Positions 27,238 through 57,545 of a stretch of 64,000 nucleotides of DNA are shown one piece after another. The notes under the pieces were generated by a model. That model saw nothing but the letters and a program-made list of their open reading frames with translations, was not told the DNA's origin and made no database searches. The stretch is taken from NCBI RefSeq assembly GCF_004634425.1, contig NZ_SBJL01000003.1:62001-126000 (forward strand), given 5' to 3'. The stretch comes from Vitreimonas flagellata. GTDB lineage: Bacteria; Pseudomonadota; Alphaproteobacteria; Caulobacterales; Aquidulcibacteraceae. Made by a program: the position numbers and the translations under genes. Position 1 is the first letter of the stretch. Each line of letters begins with the position of its first letter.

Positions 27238-27376
27238 GCGCCTAGATTCAGCGCAGGGCGGTTACTGCGGCGTGCGAGAGGCGCATCATCCCTGGGACCG
27301 TATCATCTCTCTCGGGAGCTGGCTCTGTCGCGGACCCTGGTCTGCAGCACCTGGCGCCCACCTAGTTGTCTAGGGT
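27238..27376 (+). ncRNA. ssrS: 6S RNA
   Basis: Called from position (between zapA/DUF805 and the cyclo-ligase gene, the classic ssrS locus) and from foldability. CCTAGA at 27241 pairs with TCTAGG at 27369 as the closing stem. GGGCG at 27256 pairs with CGCCC at 27355. Unpaired purine-rich strands then face each other as the open-promoter-like bubble, and an inner stem pairs CCTGGGACC with GGACCCTGG imperfectly. 6S RNA binds the housekeeping RNA polymerase holoenzyme. Ends are approximate. Confidence 0.72.
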
Positions 27377-27419
27377 TCGAGAGGATGAGCAATGCCTTAC
27401 GGCGCATGTGGTCCGCCCG

Positions 27420-49303: not shown

Positions 49304-49512
49304 CCGCTACTCCCAGCTGGGTTAACCTAGCCCGGTCGGGCGGGGCGGGGGAGCTAAAAATCGGGCGCCTAAGCGCGCTGCGGCCCCATTGCCCGTATCG
49401 GGGCCCCATGCTATCAGCCCCGCCTTCTTGGGTGGCCCGGCCTGTACGGCATGCCGTGGCGACCCCTTTTGGCGTGGGTTTCGGCCCGCGCTTCTATCCA
49501 AACGAGGATGAA

Positions 49513-49716
49513 ATGCCGAAACTGAAGACCAAGAGCGGCGTGAAAAAGCGCTTCAAGCTCACGGCCTCGGGCAAAGTGAAGGCCGGCGCCGCCGGCAAGC
49601 GCCACCGTCTGATCAGCCACAAAGCCAAGTACATTCGTCAGAACCGCGGCACGTCCCTGCTGGCCAAGCCAGATGCGGATCGCGTGAAGCTGTGGATTCC
49701 TTACGGCCTCGACTGA
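49513..49716 (+). CDS. rpmI: 50S ribosomal protein L35
   Basis: 67 residues from ATG 49513, the normal L35 length. MPKLKTKSGVKKRFKLTASG and KRHRLISHKAKYIRQNRG are typical. The frame is open back to 49408, but that part is not conserved in L35. It forms an operon with rplT (33-base gap). The 200-base leader holds several GC-rich stems; I could not identify an L20 leader. Confidence 0.97.
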   Translation: MPKLKTKSGVKKRFKLTASGKVKAGAAGKRHRLISHKAKYIRQNRGTSLLAKPDADRVKLWIPYGLD

Positions 49717-49749
49717 GCGCCGCCACCCTTATTTTGACGGAGTACAGTC

Positions 49750-50106
49750 ATGGCACGCGTTAAGGGCGGCGTTACCGCTCATGCCCGCCACAAGAAAGTT
49801 CTGAAGAAGGCGAAGGGCTATTATGGCCGTCGCTCGAACACCTTCCGCACCGCGAACGCCGCAGTCGAGAAGGCCGGTCTCTATGCGTATCGCGACCGCA
49901 AGGCCAAGAAGCGCAGCTTCCGCGCCCTTTGGATCGTGCGCATCAACGCGGCTGTCCGCGAAGAAGGCCTCACGTATTCTCGATTTATCAGCGGGCTGGC
50001 GAAAGCGGGCATCGAGCTCGACCGCAAGGTCATGGCTGATATCGCGATGAACCAGCCCGAAGCTTTCAAAGGCCTGATCACTCAGGCCAAGAGCGCGCTG
50101 GCTTAA
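49750..50106 (+). CDS. rplT: 50S ribosomal protein L20
   Basis: 118 residues. [30 protein letters not shown]-type N-terminus (here seen as [18 protein letters not shown]), [17 protein letters not shown] and [20 protein letters not shown]20 binds 23S rRNA early in 50S assembly and can regulate its own operon. Followed by a GC-rich intergenic repeat and then pheS. Confidence 0.98.
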
Positions 50107-50130
50107 GGACGTCGAAAGTCAGCGCTTCGC

Positions 50131-50186
50131 CTTCCTCCCCCGCGTGCGGGGGAGGTCCCGAGCGAAGCGAGGGGGAGGGGGAAAGT
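50131..50186. repeat. GC-rich palindromic intergenic repeat, copy 2
   Basis: CCTCCCCCGC and GCGGGGGAGG form a perfect 10-base inverted repeat (50134-50155), followed by GAGCGAAGCGAGG and a G-run. Same design as 27420-27473. It lies between rplT and pheS. A second hairpin (GTCACG, CTTCG loop, CGTGAC) follows at 50215-50231. Confidence 0.62.
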
Positions 50187-50262
50187 CCGGCGCGATTTGC
50201 GCCCGCCCCTCTCAGTCACGCTTCGCGTGACGCTCTCCGTTCGGGGAGCCAGGACGTTCGAT

Positions 50263-51348
50263 ATGACCGCGACTACCGATCTCGAAACGCTTGAACGCGA
50301 TCTGCTTGCGCGCGTGGGCGCCGCCAATGATGAGGCGGCGCTTGAAGCGCTGCGCGTTGAGGCGCTTGGCAAGCAGGGCAGCATTTCCGCGCTGATGAAG
50401 AACCTCGGCTCCATGAGCCCTGAGGCGCGCAAGGAATTTGGTCCGAAGCTCAATGGCCTGAAGGATCGCGTCACCGAAGCGATCGTCGTGAAGAAGGCGA
50501 CGCTCGCTGAAGCCGCACTCGATGCGCAACTGAAGGCCGAAGCGGTCGACGTCACACTGCCGCCGGTGAAGCCGCGGCTCGGCACGATCCATCCCGTTAG
50601 CCAGGTGATGGAAGAGCTGGCGCAAATCTTCGGCGAGATGGGCTTCTCGGTTGAAGAAGGTCCGGACATCGAAACTGACTTCAACAATTTCACCGCGCTC
50701 AACTTCCCTCCGAAGCATCCAGCGCGCGAAACGCACGACACCTTCTTCATGGACGCACGCGACGAGCGCGGCGATCGCAAAGTGCTGCGCACGCATACCT
50801 CGCCCGTTCAGGTGCGCACGATGCTGAAGCAGAAGCCGCCGATCCGCATGATCTGCATGGGCCGCACTTTCCGCAAAGATAGCGACGCCACGCACACGCC
50901 GATGTTCCACCAGATCGAAGGCCTCGTCATCGACGAGACTTCGACGATGGCTGATCTGAAGAGTGTGCTGATCGCCGCGATCAAAGCCTATTTCGAAGTT
51001 GACGATGTGAAGCTGCGCTTCCGCCCGCACCATTTCCCGTTCACTGAACCGAGCGCGGAAGTGGATGTTGGCTGCGATCGCTCGGGCGGTCAGATCAAGA
51101 TCGGCGCCGGCGATGATTGGCTTGAAATTCTAGGCTCCGGCATGGTGCACCCGAACGTGCTCGCCAATTGCGGCATCGATCCCGAGAAATACCAAGGCTA
51201 CGCCTTCGGCATGGGCATCGATCGCTTGGCCATGCTCAAATACGGCATGAACGATCTGCGCGCGTTCTTTGACGGAGATACGCGCTGGCTGAAGCATTAC
51301 GGCTTTAGCCCGTATCTGCTGCCGGGCTTGGCGCAAGGATTGGGCTGA
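50263..51348 (+). CDS. pheS: Phenylalanine-tRNA ligase alpha subunit
   Basis: 361 residues from ATG 50263, with AGGA upstream; the open frame to 50197 lies in the hairpin region. N-terminal coiled coil (about residues 1-90), then [52 protein letters not shown] (motif 2), and [13 protein letters not shown] (motif 3). It charges tRNA-Phe as an alpha2-beta2 tetramer with PheT. Its stop overlaps the next small gene, not pheT. Confidence 0.97.
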
Positions 51349-51830
51349 TGGCCCTTGATCCGCAATTGATGAGCCAGCTTGCGCTGGCGTTCGCCGGTGC
51401 GCTGATGGGCGCGCTGTTCGGCGGCTTTGCGCGGTGGACGCAAGGCAGCCGCGAGCGTCGCTTGCGGCTGACGCTTGAGCTTTACAACGAGTTTCACTCA
51501 CCTCTCTTCAACCATGTGCGGATCGTGGCGCATGAAGCGCTGGCGCACGCGCCGATGCCGGCCGCGTATGCGGCCGCCGAAGGCGAGCGCCGCGAAGCGA
51601 TCGCCTCGATCGTGCACTTCTGGGAGAAGGTCGCCCAGCTGCAGCAGATTGGCGCGCTCGACGAGCGGTTGCTGCGTCGCTTCTTTGGCCAATATGCGCG
51701 CTGGTGGAGCGAGCTGCTCTGCGAAAGACAAGACGCGCTCGCCGACCCCGAATGGGGCGCGACGCTTTCGGATATCAATCTTTTGTTCGCGCGCCTGAAG
51801 CGCACGAAGCGCGAAGGATCGCGGCGATGA
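51348..51830 (+). CDS. Unknown membrane-anchored protein between pheS and pheT
   Basis: 160 residues. One N-terminal hydrophobic helix (LALAFAGALMGALFGGFARW) is followed by a helical cytoplasmic region with LRLTLELYNEFHSPLFNHVR and IVHFWEKVAQLQQIGALDERL. This layout resembles DUF4760-like single-pass proteins, which is a tentative link. The start overlaps the pheS stop as TGATG, and the stop overlaps the pheT start as ATGA. It is thus translated as part of the pheST operon. Confidence 0.78.
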   Translation: MALDPQLMSQLALAFAGALMGALFGGFARWTQGSRERRLRLTLELYNEFHSPLFNHVRIVAHEALAHAPMPAAYAAAEGERREAIASIVHFWEKVAQLQQIGALDERLLRRFFGQYARWWSELLCERQDALADPEWGATLSDINLLFARLKRTKREGSRR

Positions 51831-54220
51831 GATTCACTCTTTCTTGGCTCAAAGAGCATTTGGCCACCGACGCCTCGCTCGACGACATCGTCGAGCGCAT
51901 GACGATGACTGGGCTTGAGGTCGAAGGTGTCGAGGACGCCGGTGCGAAGCTCGCGCCTTTCACGGTCGCCCGCATCATCAGCGCCGCAAAGCACCCGAAC
52001 GCTGACAAGCTGCAAGTCTGCCAAGTCGAAACCAAGCTTGGCACGCTGGAGATCGTCTGTGGCGCGCCGAATGCGCGCGCAGGTCTCGTCACCGCATTCG
52101 CGCCGATCGGCACGTACATTCCAGGCTCCGGCATCACGCTGGAGCCGAAGCCGGTGCGCGGCGTGGTGTCGAACGGCATGCTGTGCTCAGGCGCGGAGCT
52201 TGAGCTGGATACGGATGCCGACGGCATCCTCGAACTCGATCCGGAGCTGAAGGTCGGCACGCCACTCGCGGACGCGCTGCACCTGAACGACCCGGTGATC
52301 GATATCGAAGTCACGCCGAACCGTCCCGATTGGTTGGGCGTGCACGGCATCGCCCGCGATCTTGCGGCGGCTGGCTTGGGCAAGGTGACAACGAAGCCGG
52401 TTCTGCCTGTGCCGGGCCGCTTCCCGTCGCCGGTGAAAGTGATGATAGAGAACACCGAAGCGTGTCCGATGTTCTCGGGCCGTTACATTCGTGGCGTGAA
52501 GAACGGGCCGTCGCCGGCATGGCTGCAAACGCGCTTGCGCGCTGTTGGCCTGCGTCCGCGCAACATTCTCGTCGACATCACCAACTTCATTTCGCTCGAT
52601 CGCTCACGGCCGCTGCACGTCTATGACGCATCGAAGCTGAAGGGCGCAATCCACGCGCGCCTCGGGCGCGAAGGCGAAAGCTTCAAAGCGCTCGACGGCA
52701 ACGTCTATGACGTGACGCCCGCCATGTGTGTGATCGCCGACGACGAGAAGGTGCTCGGCCTCGGCGGCATCATGGGCGGCGAGGAGAGCGGCTGCTCCGA
52801 GGCGACGACGGACGTCTTCCTCGAAAGCGCCTATTTCGACGCCACCCGCACGCACGCCACGGGCCGCGCAACCGGCATCGTCTCTGACGCGCAATACCGT
52901 TTCGCGCGCGGCGTAGATTCAGGATTCGTCGTCACCGGACTCGAACTCGCGACGCGGATGATCCTCGATCTCTGCGGCGGCGAAGCGAGCGAAGTGGTGG
53001 TCGCCGGCGAGGAGCCCGCACCGCCGAAGACAATCACGTTCGATCCTGATCGTGTGCATGCGCTTGCTGGCATCGATGTGAAGCCCACGCGCGTGCGTGC
53101 GATCTTGAAGGATCTTGGCTTCGAGACGAGCGCCGAGGGCCAAAGCTCGAAGAAATTGATCGTGCAGCCGCCGACCTGGCGTCGCGACGTTGAGGGTTCG
53201 GCCGATCTCGTGGAAGAGGTGGCGCGCATTGAGGGTTTCGACAAGATGCCGGCGCTTGCGCCGCCGCGCGCTGCGGGCTTCCGCGCGCCGCCCGCGAGCG
53301 TTGGCGAAAGCCGCACGCGCATTGGTCGCAGAGCCGCGGCGTCGCTCGGCTACAACGAAGCCATCACCTGGAGCTTCACGCCGCGCGCGCATGCGCAAGC
53401 GTTTGGCGGTGGTTCGGAAGAGATGCTGGTGTCGAACCCGATCGCCAGCGATCTCGATTGCATGCGGCCCTCATCTTTGCCGAACCTGCTCACCGCAGCG
53501 CAGCGCAACGCTGATCGCGGCTTCGATGATGCGCGCCTGTTCGAAGCGGGCCCGGCCTATCGCGACACGACCGAGACCGGTCAAATCCGCACCATCGCAG
53601 CCGCATGGCTCGCGCGCCCGCCGCGCCATTGGCGCGCCGCGCCGCAGCCGGACATTTTCGATGTGAAGCGCGATCTCATGATCGTGCTCGAAGCCATCGG
53701 CGCGCCGGTCGCCTCACTGCAAACCTCGAACGACGTGCCGTCGCACTGGCGCCCGGGCCGTGCTGGCGCGCTGCGTTTAGGCAATAAGCCGGTAGCGATC
53801 TTCGGCGAAATCCATCCGCGCGCGCTGAAGGCGATTGGCGTCGAAGCGCCGGCTTTGGCGTTCGAGATTTTCGTCGACGCGTTGCCGCAGCCGCGTGCGA
53901 AGGGCGGCCGCTCCAAGCCGCCGCTGGAGAAGCTCGATCTGCAACCGCTCTCGCGCGATTTCGCGTTCATTGTTGACGATGCCGTCGCCGCTGCGGACGT
54001 GGTGCGCGCTGCCATTGGCGCCGATAAGGCTTTGATCTCGGATGTGTCGCTGTTCGATGTCTATCGCGGCGAACGCATGCAGCCGGGCAAGAAGAGCCTC
54101 GCCATCGAAGTCACGCTACAGCCGCGCGAGAAGACGTTGACGGATGCCGACATCGAAGCGGTCAGCGCCAAGGTCGTGAGCGCCGTGATGAAGGCGACAG
54201 GCGGCACGCTGCGGGGTTGA
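51827..54220 (+). CDS. pheT: Phenylalanine-tRNA ligase beta subunit
   Basis: 797 residues from ATG 51827. The N-terminal tRNA-binding EMAP-type domain includes ISAAKHPNADKLQVCQVETK (about residues 46-65). The B3/B4 editing region contains NILVDITNFISLDRSRPLHV and GIMGGEESG. Then come B5, the catalytic-like core (SLGYNEAITWSF), and the anticodon-binding B8 domain (PLSRDFAFIVDD). It completes the PheST tetramer. The 3' end is followed by the guanidine-II riboswitch. Confidence 0.97.
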   Translation: MRFTLSWLKEHLATDASLDDIVERMTMTGLEVEGVEDAGAKLAPFTVARIISAAKHPNADKLQVCQVETKLGTLEIVCGAPNARAGLVTAFAPIGTYIPGSGITLEPKPVRGVVSNGMLCSGAELELDTDADGILELDPELKVGTPLADALHLNDPVIDIEVTPNRPDWLGVHGIARDLAAAGLGKVTTKPVLPVPGRFPSPVKVMIENTEACPMFSGRYIRGVKNGPSPAWLQTRLRAVGLRPRNILVDITNFISLDRSRPLHVYDASKLKGAIHARLGREGESFKALDGNVYDVTPAMCVIADDEKVLGLGGIMGGEESGCSEATTDVFLESAYFDATRTHATGRATGIVSDAQYRFARGVDSGFVVTGLELATRMILDLCGGEASEVVVAGEEPAPPKTITFDPDRVHALAGIDVKPTRVRAILKDLGFETSAEGQSSKKLIVQPPTWRRDVEGSADLVEEVARIEGFDKMPALAPPRAAGFRAPPASVGESRTRIGRRAAASLGYNEAITWSFTPRAHAQAFGGGSEEMLVSNPIASDLDCMRPSSLPNLLTAAQRNADRGFDDARLFEAGPAYRDTTETGQIRTIAAAWLARPPRHWRAAPQPDIFDVKRDLMIVLEAIGAPVASLQTSNDVPSHWRPGRAGALRLGNKPVAIFGEIHPRALKAIGVEAPALAFEIFVDALPQPRAKGGRSKPPLEKLDLQPLSRDFAFIVDDAVAAADVVRAAIGADKALISDVSLFDVYRGERMQPGKKSLAIEVTLQPREKTLTDADIEAVSAKVVSAVMKATGGTLRG

Positions 54221-54250
54221 ACCCCGCAGTGCTTGTCCCACATGATGGGG

Positions 54251-54321
54251 CGCGCGGGACGACCCGTGCGCTTTTCACCCAACGGGGACGGCCCCAACAT
54301 GCGCGCGAGCGCGCGGAGGAG
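54251..54321 (+). promoter_or_regulatory. Guanidine-II (mini-ykkC) riboswitch
   Basis: Two consecutive hairpins carry the diagnostic ACGR tetraloops. P1 (54251-54270): CGCGCGGG pairs with CCCGTGCG around ACGA. P2 (54284-54295): GGGG pairs with CCCC around ACGG. Thirteen bases separate them. The ribosome-binding site GGAGGAG lies about 20 bases after P2, directly ahead of the SMR exporter gene. In this class, guanidinium binding in both loops promotes loop-loop contact and frees translation. Confidence 0.88.
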
Positions 54322-54326
54322 TCGCT

Positions 54327-54650
54327 ATGCAAGCCTGGTTGATGTTGGCCGGCGCGGGTCTGTTGGAAATCGTTTGGGCCATTGGCCTCAAATACGCCGA
54401 CGGTTTCACCAAGCCTGTTCCAAGTGCGATTACGATCGCGGCGATGGCTGCCTCCATGTGGCTGCTCGCGATGGCGGCGCGCGATTTGCCGATCGGCACG
54501 GCTTACGCGATCTGGACCGGCATCGGCGCCGTGGGTGCGGCGCTCCTCGGCATTATGCTCTTCAACGAAAGCGCCAATGTCGCGCGCCTTGCCTGTATCG
54601 GCCTGATCGTAGCCGGGATCGTCGGCTTGAAACTTTCATCCCCGAGCTGA
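54327..54650 (+). CDS. gdx: SMR-family guanidinium exporter (SugE/Gdx type)
   Basis: 107 residues, four TM helices. The Gdx subtype is indicated by [20 protein letters not shown] (the conserved Glu14 region with Trp and Lys), [20 protein letters not shown], and the final [15 protein letters not shown], all as in E. coli SugE. It exports guanidinium in exchange for protons as an antiparallel dimer. The upstream guanidine-II riboswitch independently supports this substrate. Confidence 0.93.
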
Positions 54651-54705
54651 GCCCGCTTGGCCCGCCTCTCGTGCTTGTTTAAAAGTGCGCGTGAGGGGAA
54701 GGCGC

Positions 54706-55536
54706 ATGCCTCTAATCAAACGCAAACACACGACCGCGAAAGCCTACGCGCACGATTGGCTTGAGCCAGACCAACCGGGCGGCATCAATTTCTTTTCCGG
54801 TACGATCATCGTGCTGGTGATCTTCAGCTTGTTGTCGCTGGCGCTTGAGACGGAGCTGTTGCGCGCCGATTCTGGCCTCGATCGTTCGATGCTGCCCTGG
54901 GTGCAGGCGGTGAACGTCGCTGTCGTGTGGATTTTCGCCATCGAGTTTACGTTGCGCTTTTGGTCTGAAGGTGAGAATTCCGCGCACGCTGGCGTTTCGG
55001 GGCGCATCCGCTTCTTGATGCAGCCGGTGACCATAGCCGACGTTCTGGCGTTCTTGCCCGAACTGATCGCGATGGTGTTCTTTCCGGATCATTCCAATCA
55101 ACTCTTCCCGGCGCTGCGGGCGCTGCGGCTTTTCCGCTTGTTCAAGCTTGCGCGTTACGTGCCGGCGTTTGCGATCGTCGGCGCTGCCGTGCGCCGCGCC
55201 TGGGCGCCCTTGATGGCCGCACTCGCGGTGGCGGCCGCACAGCTCTACATCGCCGCGATGATGCTTTACCTGATCGAAGGCGATACTAAGCCCCAAGCCT
55301 TCGGCTCGATCGCGCGCGCGATGTGGTGGGCCGTCGTGACGCTGACGACGGTGGGCTACGGCGATGTCTATCCGGAATCGACCTGGGGCCGGATCGCTGC
55401 TGGCCTCGTGGCGCTCGCCGGCGTTGGCATCGTCGCCATGCCCACAGGTATTCTCGCGTCAGCGTTCGCGGAGGAGTTTCGCGAGCGGCACGAGGCTGAG
55501 CAACGCGCGCGGCGTGGCGAGTCTATCGATCAGTGA
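54706..55536 (+). CDS. Voltage-gated-type potassium channel (ion transporter)
   Basis: 276 residues from ATG 54706 (GAGGGGAAGG upstream). About six TM helices. The S4-like segment ALRALRLFRLFKLARYVPAF carries Arg/Lys at every third position, as in a voltage sensor. The pore helix ends in LTTVGYGDVYPES, the potassium selectivity filter. A short acidic and basic C-terminal tail follows. It overlaps the convergent beta-propeller gene by 7 bases. Confidence 0.92.
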   Translation: MPLIKRKHTTAKAYAHDWLEPDQPGGINFFSGTIIVLVIFSLLSLALETELLRADSGLDRSMLPWVQAVNVAVVWIFAIEFTLRFWSEGENSAHAGVSGRIRFLMQPVTIADVLAFLPELIAMVFFPDHSNQLFPALRALRLFRLFKLARYVPAFAIVGAAVRRAWAPLMAALAVAAAQLYIAAMMLYLIEGDTKPQAFGSIARAMWWAVVTLTTVGYGDVYPESTWGRIAAGLVALAGVGIVAMPTGILASAFAEEFRERHEAEQRARRGESIDQ

Positions 55537-57545
55537 CGTGGCGGCGGCGCAGTGAGGTTCACCCGCGCCATCTCATCGATGCGGCCATCGCGGACGCGGC
55601 CCTCGATGATCTCCGTACCCGAAAGCGCGAAGATGCGCGGGCCAATGAAGATTGGCCGCGAATTGCCATACCAATCGATGCACGAGACTTCGCACTCATA
55701 ACTCGGGTGCTCGGACGCATCCTTCGTTGAAAGCTCGCCGAGCGGCGCGAGACGGTGATCGGCGGAGAGCGCGATGAAGCTCACGTCCGAAGATTCACTA
55801 TCCCAGACCCAACGACCGCTGCGCCATTGCGCTTCGCCGGTCGGGATGGCGAGCGTGCCGGAGCCGTCGGCGGCGAGTGTGTAATTGAAGGCGTGCGAGC
55901 GGCCTTCGGTTTCAAAGCGCCCGGCGAGCCGGGTCGTATCGGCGACGCGCGGCGCGCCGGAGAGATCGATCACCGACATGCTGAGTGCATCGCGCGAGTG
56001 ATAGCCGGTGATGATCGCGTCTTCGCCGATGCTTTCGACGCGGATCACATTGTGCGGTGCGTCGAGCGCTTGGGCGGCGCCAGGATTGCTCGACGGCACG
56101 ACGACGACGCGCGCGACGACCTCCTCGACTTCGTCCTCGTCCATGTACGACGACCAGCGCGTGCGGCCGCCATAGACGAGGTGGCCTGCGGTGAAGCGGT
56201 TCTCCATCGCACTCCCCATGACGCTGGGCAGTCGCGTGAAAGCGTTCTCCGGCGCGGATTGTGGCGTCGTGCTGAAATCCGCGAGCGGGGTGGAGAAATA
56301 GCGCACCGGAGTCGTGTTATCCAATGCGTTGCAACGTGGATCGACCCATAGCGCGAGCGCGCGGAATTCGGTCGCCGTCGCCTCCATACCGAGCTGATCG
56401 TTCGGCCCGCCCCGCACGAAGAGGGCGCGCGGACGCCCCGTCGCCAAGTCGACTTGAAAGATCGCGGACGGCGTCGCACTCTGAAAACTGTTCTTCGGCC
56501 GCGCAGCGCACTCGGCCTCCTGCGCGGCGGAATTGCCGTAGCCTTCGTTCCTCGGCCAAGTCCACAGATAGAGGTGGTCGTTCGAGACGTAGAACTCGCG
56601 CGGGCGGGGGCCAGCGATGGCGGTGGTGCGACATTCCAATTCGTCGCCGGCGCGTGTGCTGCCGAGCGGGCACACAGCGATGGTGTGGAAGGTGGGATCG
56701 AAGGTCGCTTGGATCGGGCGATAGATGTTGCGCGGCGTCACGAGCGGGCGACCGATCGAGAGCTGTTCCTCTTCGTCCAATGTGCGGACGAGGCGGCGCA
56801 CGCGCGGCCATTCGATGTCGTCGGCATCAAGATCGAGGTCGTCGAGCGCGACGGGCGAATAGATGACGAGATTGCCGTTGACCAAACGCGTCGCGTAATT
56901 CTCGCTGTCGTAATAATCGCCGGATGAAACGAAATAGGCGCCTTCGCGGGTGAAGCGGCCTTCGGGGCTCAGCGAGAAGATACTGAACTCCGTCGCGTCG
57001 TGATCGTAATTGTAGGACGTGGCGACGATGCGGTTCTCGTGCACGAGGATTTCATCGTACCAGGCATCCATACTGCCCTTGCGATAGATGTTGATGCGAT
57101 CGGTGAGCGCGAGATCGGCGGACGACGCGCCGGTGTTGATCGAAAACAGCCGGCCGTCCTGCAGCACGATCAGGTACGGCCCGATCATCTTGACGATGTC
57201 GCCTTCGTCGACGCCTGCGGTTTGCACATTGGTGATGGCGGTGTTCACCGAAACGGGCGCCGGCGCCGAGATGCGCGAGGCCGTGACGACGACGGATTCC
57301 TCTTCGGGACAAACCTGGTCGGGCGGACAATCTGGATCGGCTATGAGCTTGCCGCCGTTTGTGGCGCGGTTGCGCGCGCGATCCGCGGCCTCAAGGTCGC
57401 GCACGTAGGCGCGAAACTCCGTTTCACCGCTGAACGGCGCAAGCGCGCCCCAAGTCGGCGGCTCGGTCGCGTTGCGCGCAATGGGCGCCGGCGTTGCGCA
57501 GGCGCCCACAAGCAAGGCCAGTCCAGTGCAGAGCCACTGACGCAT
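55530..57545 (-). CDS. Beta-propeller lipoprotein
   Basis: 671 residues. Lipobox LVGAC gives a lipidated Cys near residue 16. Repeated Trp/Asp blades suggest a C-terminal beta-propeller of the PF09826 type: TNVQTAGVDEGDIVKMIGPY, LIVLQDGRLFSI, RIVATSYNYDHDATEFSIF, SVIDLSGAPRVADTTRLAG, and IFALSGTEIIEGRV. Family members are exported and of unknown function. It lies 79 bases from the next minus-strand gene's stop. Confidence 0.88.
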   Translation of the reverse strand: MRQWLCTGLALLVGACATPAPIARNATEPPTWGALAPFSGETEFRAYVRDLEAADRARNRATNGGKLIADPDCPPDQVCPEEESVVVTASRISAPAPVSVNTAITNVQTAGVDEGDIVKMIGPYLIVLQDGRLFSINTGASSADLALTDRINIYRKGSMDAWYDEILVHENRIVATSYNYDHDATEFSIFSLSPEGRFTREGAYFVSSGDYYDSENYATRLVNGNLVIYSPVALDDLDLDADDIEWPRVRRLVRTLDEEEQLSIGRPLVTPRNIYRPIQATFDPTFHTIAVCPLGSTRAGDELECRTTAIAGPRPREFYVSNDHLYLWTWPRNEGYGNSAAQEAECAARPKNSFQSATPSAIFQVDLATGRPRALFVRGGPNDQLGMEATATEFRALALWVDPRCNALDNTTPVRYFSTPLADFSTTPQSAPENAFTRLPSVMGSAMENRFTAGHLVYGGRTRWSSYMDEDEVEEVVARVVVVPSSNPGAAQALDAPHNVIRVESIGEDAIITGYHSRDALSMSVIDLSGAPRVADTTRLAGRFETEGRSHAFNYTLAADGSGTLAIPTGEAQWRSGRWVWDSESSDVSFIALSADHRLAPLGELSTKDASEHPSYECEVSCIDWYGNSRPIFIGPRIFALSGTEIIEGRVRDGRIDEMARVNLTAPPPRH

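Follow-up and report, generated by a model that had tools for sequence, protein, structure and literature searches.

The window analysed here is the whole stretch of 64,000 nucleotides, and its forward strand carries, directly behind pheT, a short leader RNA followed by a gene for a small membrane transporter. The gene pheT runs from 51824 to 54220 (+; TIGR00472, 679 bits), and it ends 29 bases before the first hairpin of the leader and 106 bases before the start codon of gdx, so that the position just after pheT given in the first-pass annotation is correct. The leader contains a hairpin P1 (54250 to 54271, +) with the loop ACGA at 54259-54262, a hairpin P2 (54284 to 54295, +) with the loop ACGG at 54288-54291, and a small, lineage-specific third hairpin P3, which is predicted at 54301 to 54314 (+) and precedes the ribosome binding site GGAGGAG (54315 to 54321, +). 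The transporter gene, gdx (sugE), occupies 54327 to 54650 (+) and encodes 107 amino acids. Downstream lies an ion-channel gene (54685 to 55536, +; PF00520), which the neighbour map places frequently beside gdx in the genus. Elsewhere in the window, a 6S RNA (RF00013) is found at 27259-27418 (+), with 55.3 bits against a cut-off of 46.4.

The aptamer and the exporter gene

The element before gdx is a standard, well-formed guanidine-II (mini-ykkC) riboswitch, and in this respect it holds little surprise. The covariance model RF01068 matches positions 54251-54295 on the plus strand with 45.4 bits, compared with the Rfam gathering score of 32; this is the check that the first-pass annotation had proposed. 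The E-value is 8.2e-6 for the 64-kb window and 4227 families. Across the 3.9-Mb genome, with 150 of the 397 first-look candidates scored, it is the sole match at E <= 0.001 (E 1.2e-7). The class, of which 611 to about 800 examples are recorded (PMC12186494, PMC5486947), is defined by two G+C-rich hairpins with ACGR loops, and its linker measures at least 13 nt in the great majority of members (PMC5486947). In the window, both hairpins are G+C-rich and carry such loops, the loops being those read from the letters, and they are followed by GGAGGAG, close by at 19 bases beyond the end of P2, and by the start codon at 54327. The linker (54272-54283) has 12 nt if P1 is taken at its full nine pairs, and 13 nt with one pair less. 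The window copy resembles the family in its two hairpins and in the adjoining ribosome site of an exporter gene, its linker is short, and its aptamer shows no notable difference, P3 being an extra.

Nine copies from the genus, aligned on their loops, allow the stems to be compared. In P1, the seven pairs nearest the loop (1-7) make up 63 cells, of which 61 hold standard pairs of several types; at several positions both sides have changed and the pairing is kept. For P2, covariation is uninformative, because all four of its pairs are invariant in 9 of the 9 copies. The third hairpin is predicted, without a control, in eight of the nine, and is missing in G002. The nearest relative, G023, whose gdx is 94% identical, retains the switch with 46.1 bits.

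Judged by its sequence, the gene at 54327-54650 encodes a Gdx-type transporter of the SMR family, and thus a predicted guanidinium exporter. Its product matches Pfam Multi_Drug_Res (PF00893, 9e-29) and the NCBIfam SugE equivalog NF008512 (144 bits against a cut-off of 126, E 1.7e-42), and the Qac and EmrE models listed fall far under their cut-offs (EmrE family, 62 versus 162 bits). Its best PDB matches are 6wk5 (1.8e-30) and 8vxu (5e-30), followed by EmrE (2.6e-15); 6wk5 is identical in sequence to 6wk9, which is named Gdx-Clo (PMC9574504). In an alignment to the 6wk5 chain, E13, W16, S42, Y59 and W62 (Gdx-Clo numbering) are all present. Position 16 is a conserved Trp in Gdx proteins and Gly or Ala in the Qac subtype (PMC7695847). 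The window gene therefore has the Gdx rather than the Qac residue at this position. It shares family and subtype residues with Gdx-Clo and E. coli Gdx/SugE, from which it is set apart by ordinary sequence divergence. The first-pass annotation had called the gene a SugE/Gdx-type member of the SMR family, and had argued that riboswitch class and exporter subtype independently predict one ligand. Both claims are borne out, the latter by the RNA covariance model on the one hand and by the protein models and the Gdx-marking Trp on the other. A second SMR match in the same genome (G000:C3:211975-212286, L156) is 38% identical to Gdx; it has no guanidine-II match, and the genes preceding it are an SDR gene and one that looks folB-like by eye.

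Transcription and access to the ribosome site

A promoter-like block precedes P1. It is composed of a -35-like half, TTGAAC (54217 to 54222, +), and a second half, TTGTCCCACAT (54233 to 54243, +), and similar letters occur at the same place in genus copies. The first half overlaps the pheT stop codon (54218-54220), and a short hairpin, 54209-54229, has its loop there. We considered this hairpin as a terminator at the end of pheT and rejected it: it has no U-run, it is imperfect in G023, and it is absent from the 7 terminator-like sites returned by the scan (6.8 expected).

A pattern derived from the genus copies of the block was run over all collected loci, which amount to 2.27 million bases with both strands counted, much of this sequence being redundant. 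Of its 8 distinct occurrences, 7 stand immediately in front of a guanidine-II switch, and the one stray occurrence gives the background. Six of the seven match by construction, since they are the source copies (G000, G004, G008, G009, G024, G027); the seventh comes from G015, at a gdx locus that was not among the sources. Thus the pattern fits 7 of the 12 intact switch copies of the genus, the remainder being G002, G022, G023, G005 and the first copy of G015, and the damaged switches of G003 and G029 do not strictly fit it. A scan for the sigma-70 consensus over 49500-56000 returned no site (0.9 expected), and a promoter function is therefore something that we infer from the pattern. If the block does act in this way, the unit of switch and gdx would be transcribed from a promoter of its own, beginning near P1, and read-through from pheT would be at most an addition. 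In three relatives (G004, G024, G027) a patatin-like gene on the opposite strand (family by eye) lies between pheT and the switch, and in two more (G029, G003) it lies between pheT and the damaged switch. It follows that the unit can live without pheT read-through, which seems unnecessary in general and possible in the window. The suggestion in the first-pass annotation that read-through may also matter thus stands as to its possibility; that it does matter draws no support from the promoter-like block or from the five relatives with the opposite-strand gene.

The members of the guanidine-II class are translational ON switches (PMC9561414, PMC9094411, PMC12186494), and by analogy the window copy is most likely one as well. 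From published work on other copies, guanidinium would join the two loops in a kissing pair; this would free the ribosome site, so that the exporter would be made when guanidine is present. For the masked state of the site, three arrangements have been put forward: the linker may act as an anti-SD (PMC9094411), a P0 helix may form, as in P. aeruginosa (PMC9561414), or a stem may overlap both P2 and the ribosome site, as in G. violaceus (PMC5486947).

The whole leader of the window copy folds no better than its shuffles (z -1.10, with 26 of 200 as good). In the free folds of several genus copies, P2 is predicted to pair with the ribosome site. Forcing the aptamer to form raised the predicted access to the site slightly, and without a control, in 9 of the 10 leaders compared (in the window copy from 0.45 to 0.56), and it lowered it in G044; G009 was left out, since its two stems were not both located. 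We also compared the duplex energy of P2 and ribosome site with those for 98 ribosome sites taken mechanically from other genes in the window and 16 loci, and with spacer shuffles, whose counts exclude G007 and G017 because no SD core was located there. By this measure the pairing in the window is not above background, with 34 of 98 other sites and 1168 of 2000 spacer shuffles as strong. G002 alone stood out clearly (0 of 98 sites, 1 of 2000 shuffles) and G009 was less distinct (4 of 98, 75 of 2000); the switchless G018 outscored 7 of the 9 switch-bearing copies. Hiding of the ribosome site by P2, or by the linker as judged by eye, is unproven for the window copy and, since both the P2 test and the leader folding lie at background, the ON-switch reading leans on the family and not on a platform demonstrated in this copy.

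Switch states within the genus and the reading of the locus

An SMR match is found in 27 of 30 genus genomes, and a gdx orthologue (at least 70% identity) in 19; in G003, where the gene meets a contig end, the identity covers just 59 residues. At 17 of these 19 orthologous loci pheT is a same-strand neighbour no more than 2.1 kb upstream. The switch is present at 9, damaged at 2 and absent at 8, where G009 is counted as present with 30.9 bits, slightly below the cut-off. A second, laxer search, with at most 150 candidates scored in each genome, brought none of the 19 genus genomes previously without a match to the cut-off. The residues E13, W16, S42, Y59 and W62 are retained in all 18 complete orthologues.

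The two damaged switches differ in kind. In G029 there are changes in both loop regions, and its gdx locus gives no match at E <= 10. In G003, P1 is kept and a palindromic element of 88 bases with 19-base inverted ends (L153:3038-3125, G003:C73) stands in place of P2 and part of the linker, leaving a remnant that scores 21.3 bits. This 88-base stretch belongs to a dispersed repeat, which is frequent in the window's own genome, with 41 matching rows in G000, 34 in G003, 5 in G018, 3 in G004, 2 in G024 and 0 in G029, counting both strands and pieces. As for the eight loci without a switch, gdx in G007 follows the pheT stop codon by 31 bases, the switch is absent at the orthologous locus of G018, and in the other six (G010, G012, G017, G021, G025, G026) an SDR gene is directly upstream, its stop codon 8 or 9 bases before gdx. 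The SDR assignment comes from a scan of the G017 copy, and for the other five from similarity to it. At another locus of the genus (G008:C30:135152-137462), pheT is matched in three pieces, one of which has an in-frame TGA, either a sequencing error or real.

On a tree of pheT (27 genus rows, quick search) the switch states require at least 6 changes, and on a tree of gdx, with four further switch-bearing rows included, at least 4; parts of both trees are weakly supported, and they were used without a direction of change. Horizontal transfer of the switch-gdx unit would likewise cost changes on the trees. The clearest losses are those of G003 and G029, because each tree places both of them with G004 and G024, which carry the switch. 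Draft assemblies in many contigs are common among the genus genomes, and for G003 (82% complete, 5% contamination) a misassembly at the repeat is possible. We give roughly even chances to the proposition that guanidine control was lost independently several times within the genus, by different routes, with the orthologous exporter kept. The routes would be the replacement of P2 by a dispersed palindrome, alteration of the two loops, a deletion that moved gdx up to the pheT stop codon, at a distance of 31 bases, and substitution of the leader by an SDR gene.

There is a precedent. The caesium-resistant strain ZX-1, which descends from a laboratory E. coli, has lost P2 through a 20-bp deletion, and this loss is associated with constitutive gdx (PMC13064478). 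The leaders of G003 and G029 look like natural counterparts of this deletion, except that the case in the genus is one of variation between species, known from sequence alone. Our search of the open-licence PMC literature found no account of a natural loss of the guanidine-II switch between species. If repeated loss is real, some lineages would have moved from guanidine-induced export to constitutive export on the transcript of the upstream gene, as in ZX-1. The variation within the genus is the one mildly new point, and the single element adds one more genome to a well-studied class. Repeated loss, if it holds, would mean that nature supplies matched close relatives whose shared exporter is under guanidine control in one and free of it in the other. 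Such pairs would help in asking why bacteria need to export guanidine at all, and under which conditions induction is worthwhile.

We regard it as highly probable that, in the window, a standard guanidine-II riboswitch controls the translation of a Gdx-type guanidinium exporter. The damaged and missing switches among its relatives raise the question whether the hairpins of the window copy are themselves a non-functional aptamer, with gdx expressed constitutively from the pheT transcript. The ten damaged or absent switches among the 19 orthologous loci, and the arrangement in G007 in particular, show where such a reading comes from; the window copy, however, has intact ACGR loops and stems and a score far above the cut-off, and its nearest relative has kept the switch, and we think this reading very improbable. 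More improbable still is a borrowed switch in front of a gene whose product exports drugs or antiseptics (Qac) and not guanidinium. The title of the NCBIfam SugE model does read quaternary ammonium efflux, yet this is a matter of name only and no contradiction, because W16, where Qac proteins have Gly or Ala, marks the Gdx subtype, and the listed Qac and EmrE models remain far below their cut-offs.

The remaining alternative, which we consider unlikely and would still take more seriously, is that gdx mRNA arises mainly by read-through from pheT, the switch only tuning the translation of a housekeeping transcript. It accords with the short distance from pheT to P1, with no U-rich terminator in between, with the empty sigma-70 scan, and with the close placement of gdx behind pheT in G007 and behind the SDR gene in six genomes. 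Against it are the promoter-like block before P1 in seven of the twelve genus switch copies, and the opposite-strand gene that separates pheT from the switch in G004, G024 and G027, and from what is left of it in G029 and G003.

Occurrence across genomes and downstream genes

RF01068 is found in 16 of 101 genomes, the window's own included; 11 of these 16 belong to the genus, which contributes 30 genomes to the set. In a sample of 387 genomes from across the taxonomic class, 48 have it. An SMR gene follows 16 of the 17 matches in the 101-genome set (again with the window's own). Conversely, 20 of 80 Gdx loci were put to Rfam, and 6 of these have a guanidine-II switch. In the window's own genome, the guanidine-I and guanidine-III riboswitches and the UAAP1 model TIGR03425 have no match at E <= 0.001. 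The open-licence PMC literature yielded no paper that joins a guanidine riboswitch with pheT or with the alphaproteobacteria.

The class-level search gave 51 matches besides that of the window, and the downstream gene was examined for 29 of them: it is an SMR gene in 16, UAAP1-like in 9 (one scanned, eight judged from the start of the protein), a PACE transporter in 2, an ACT-domain protein in 1, and unassigned in 1. The two switches directly before PACE-family transporters are at L205:1579-2007 and L207:980-1480, the family being assigned by the NCBIfam PACE model above its cut-off; a literature search for this combination listed only two broad reviews. In G015, a guanidine-II match of 38 bits (G015:C3:134159-134203; L017/L149) lies directly before a divergent second copy of atpB (F0 subunit a), whose frame is broken, and a further guanidine-II match, about 0.9 kb on, precedes gdx.
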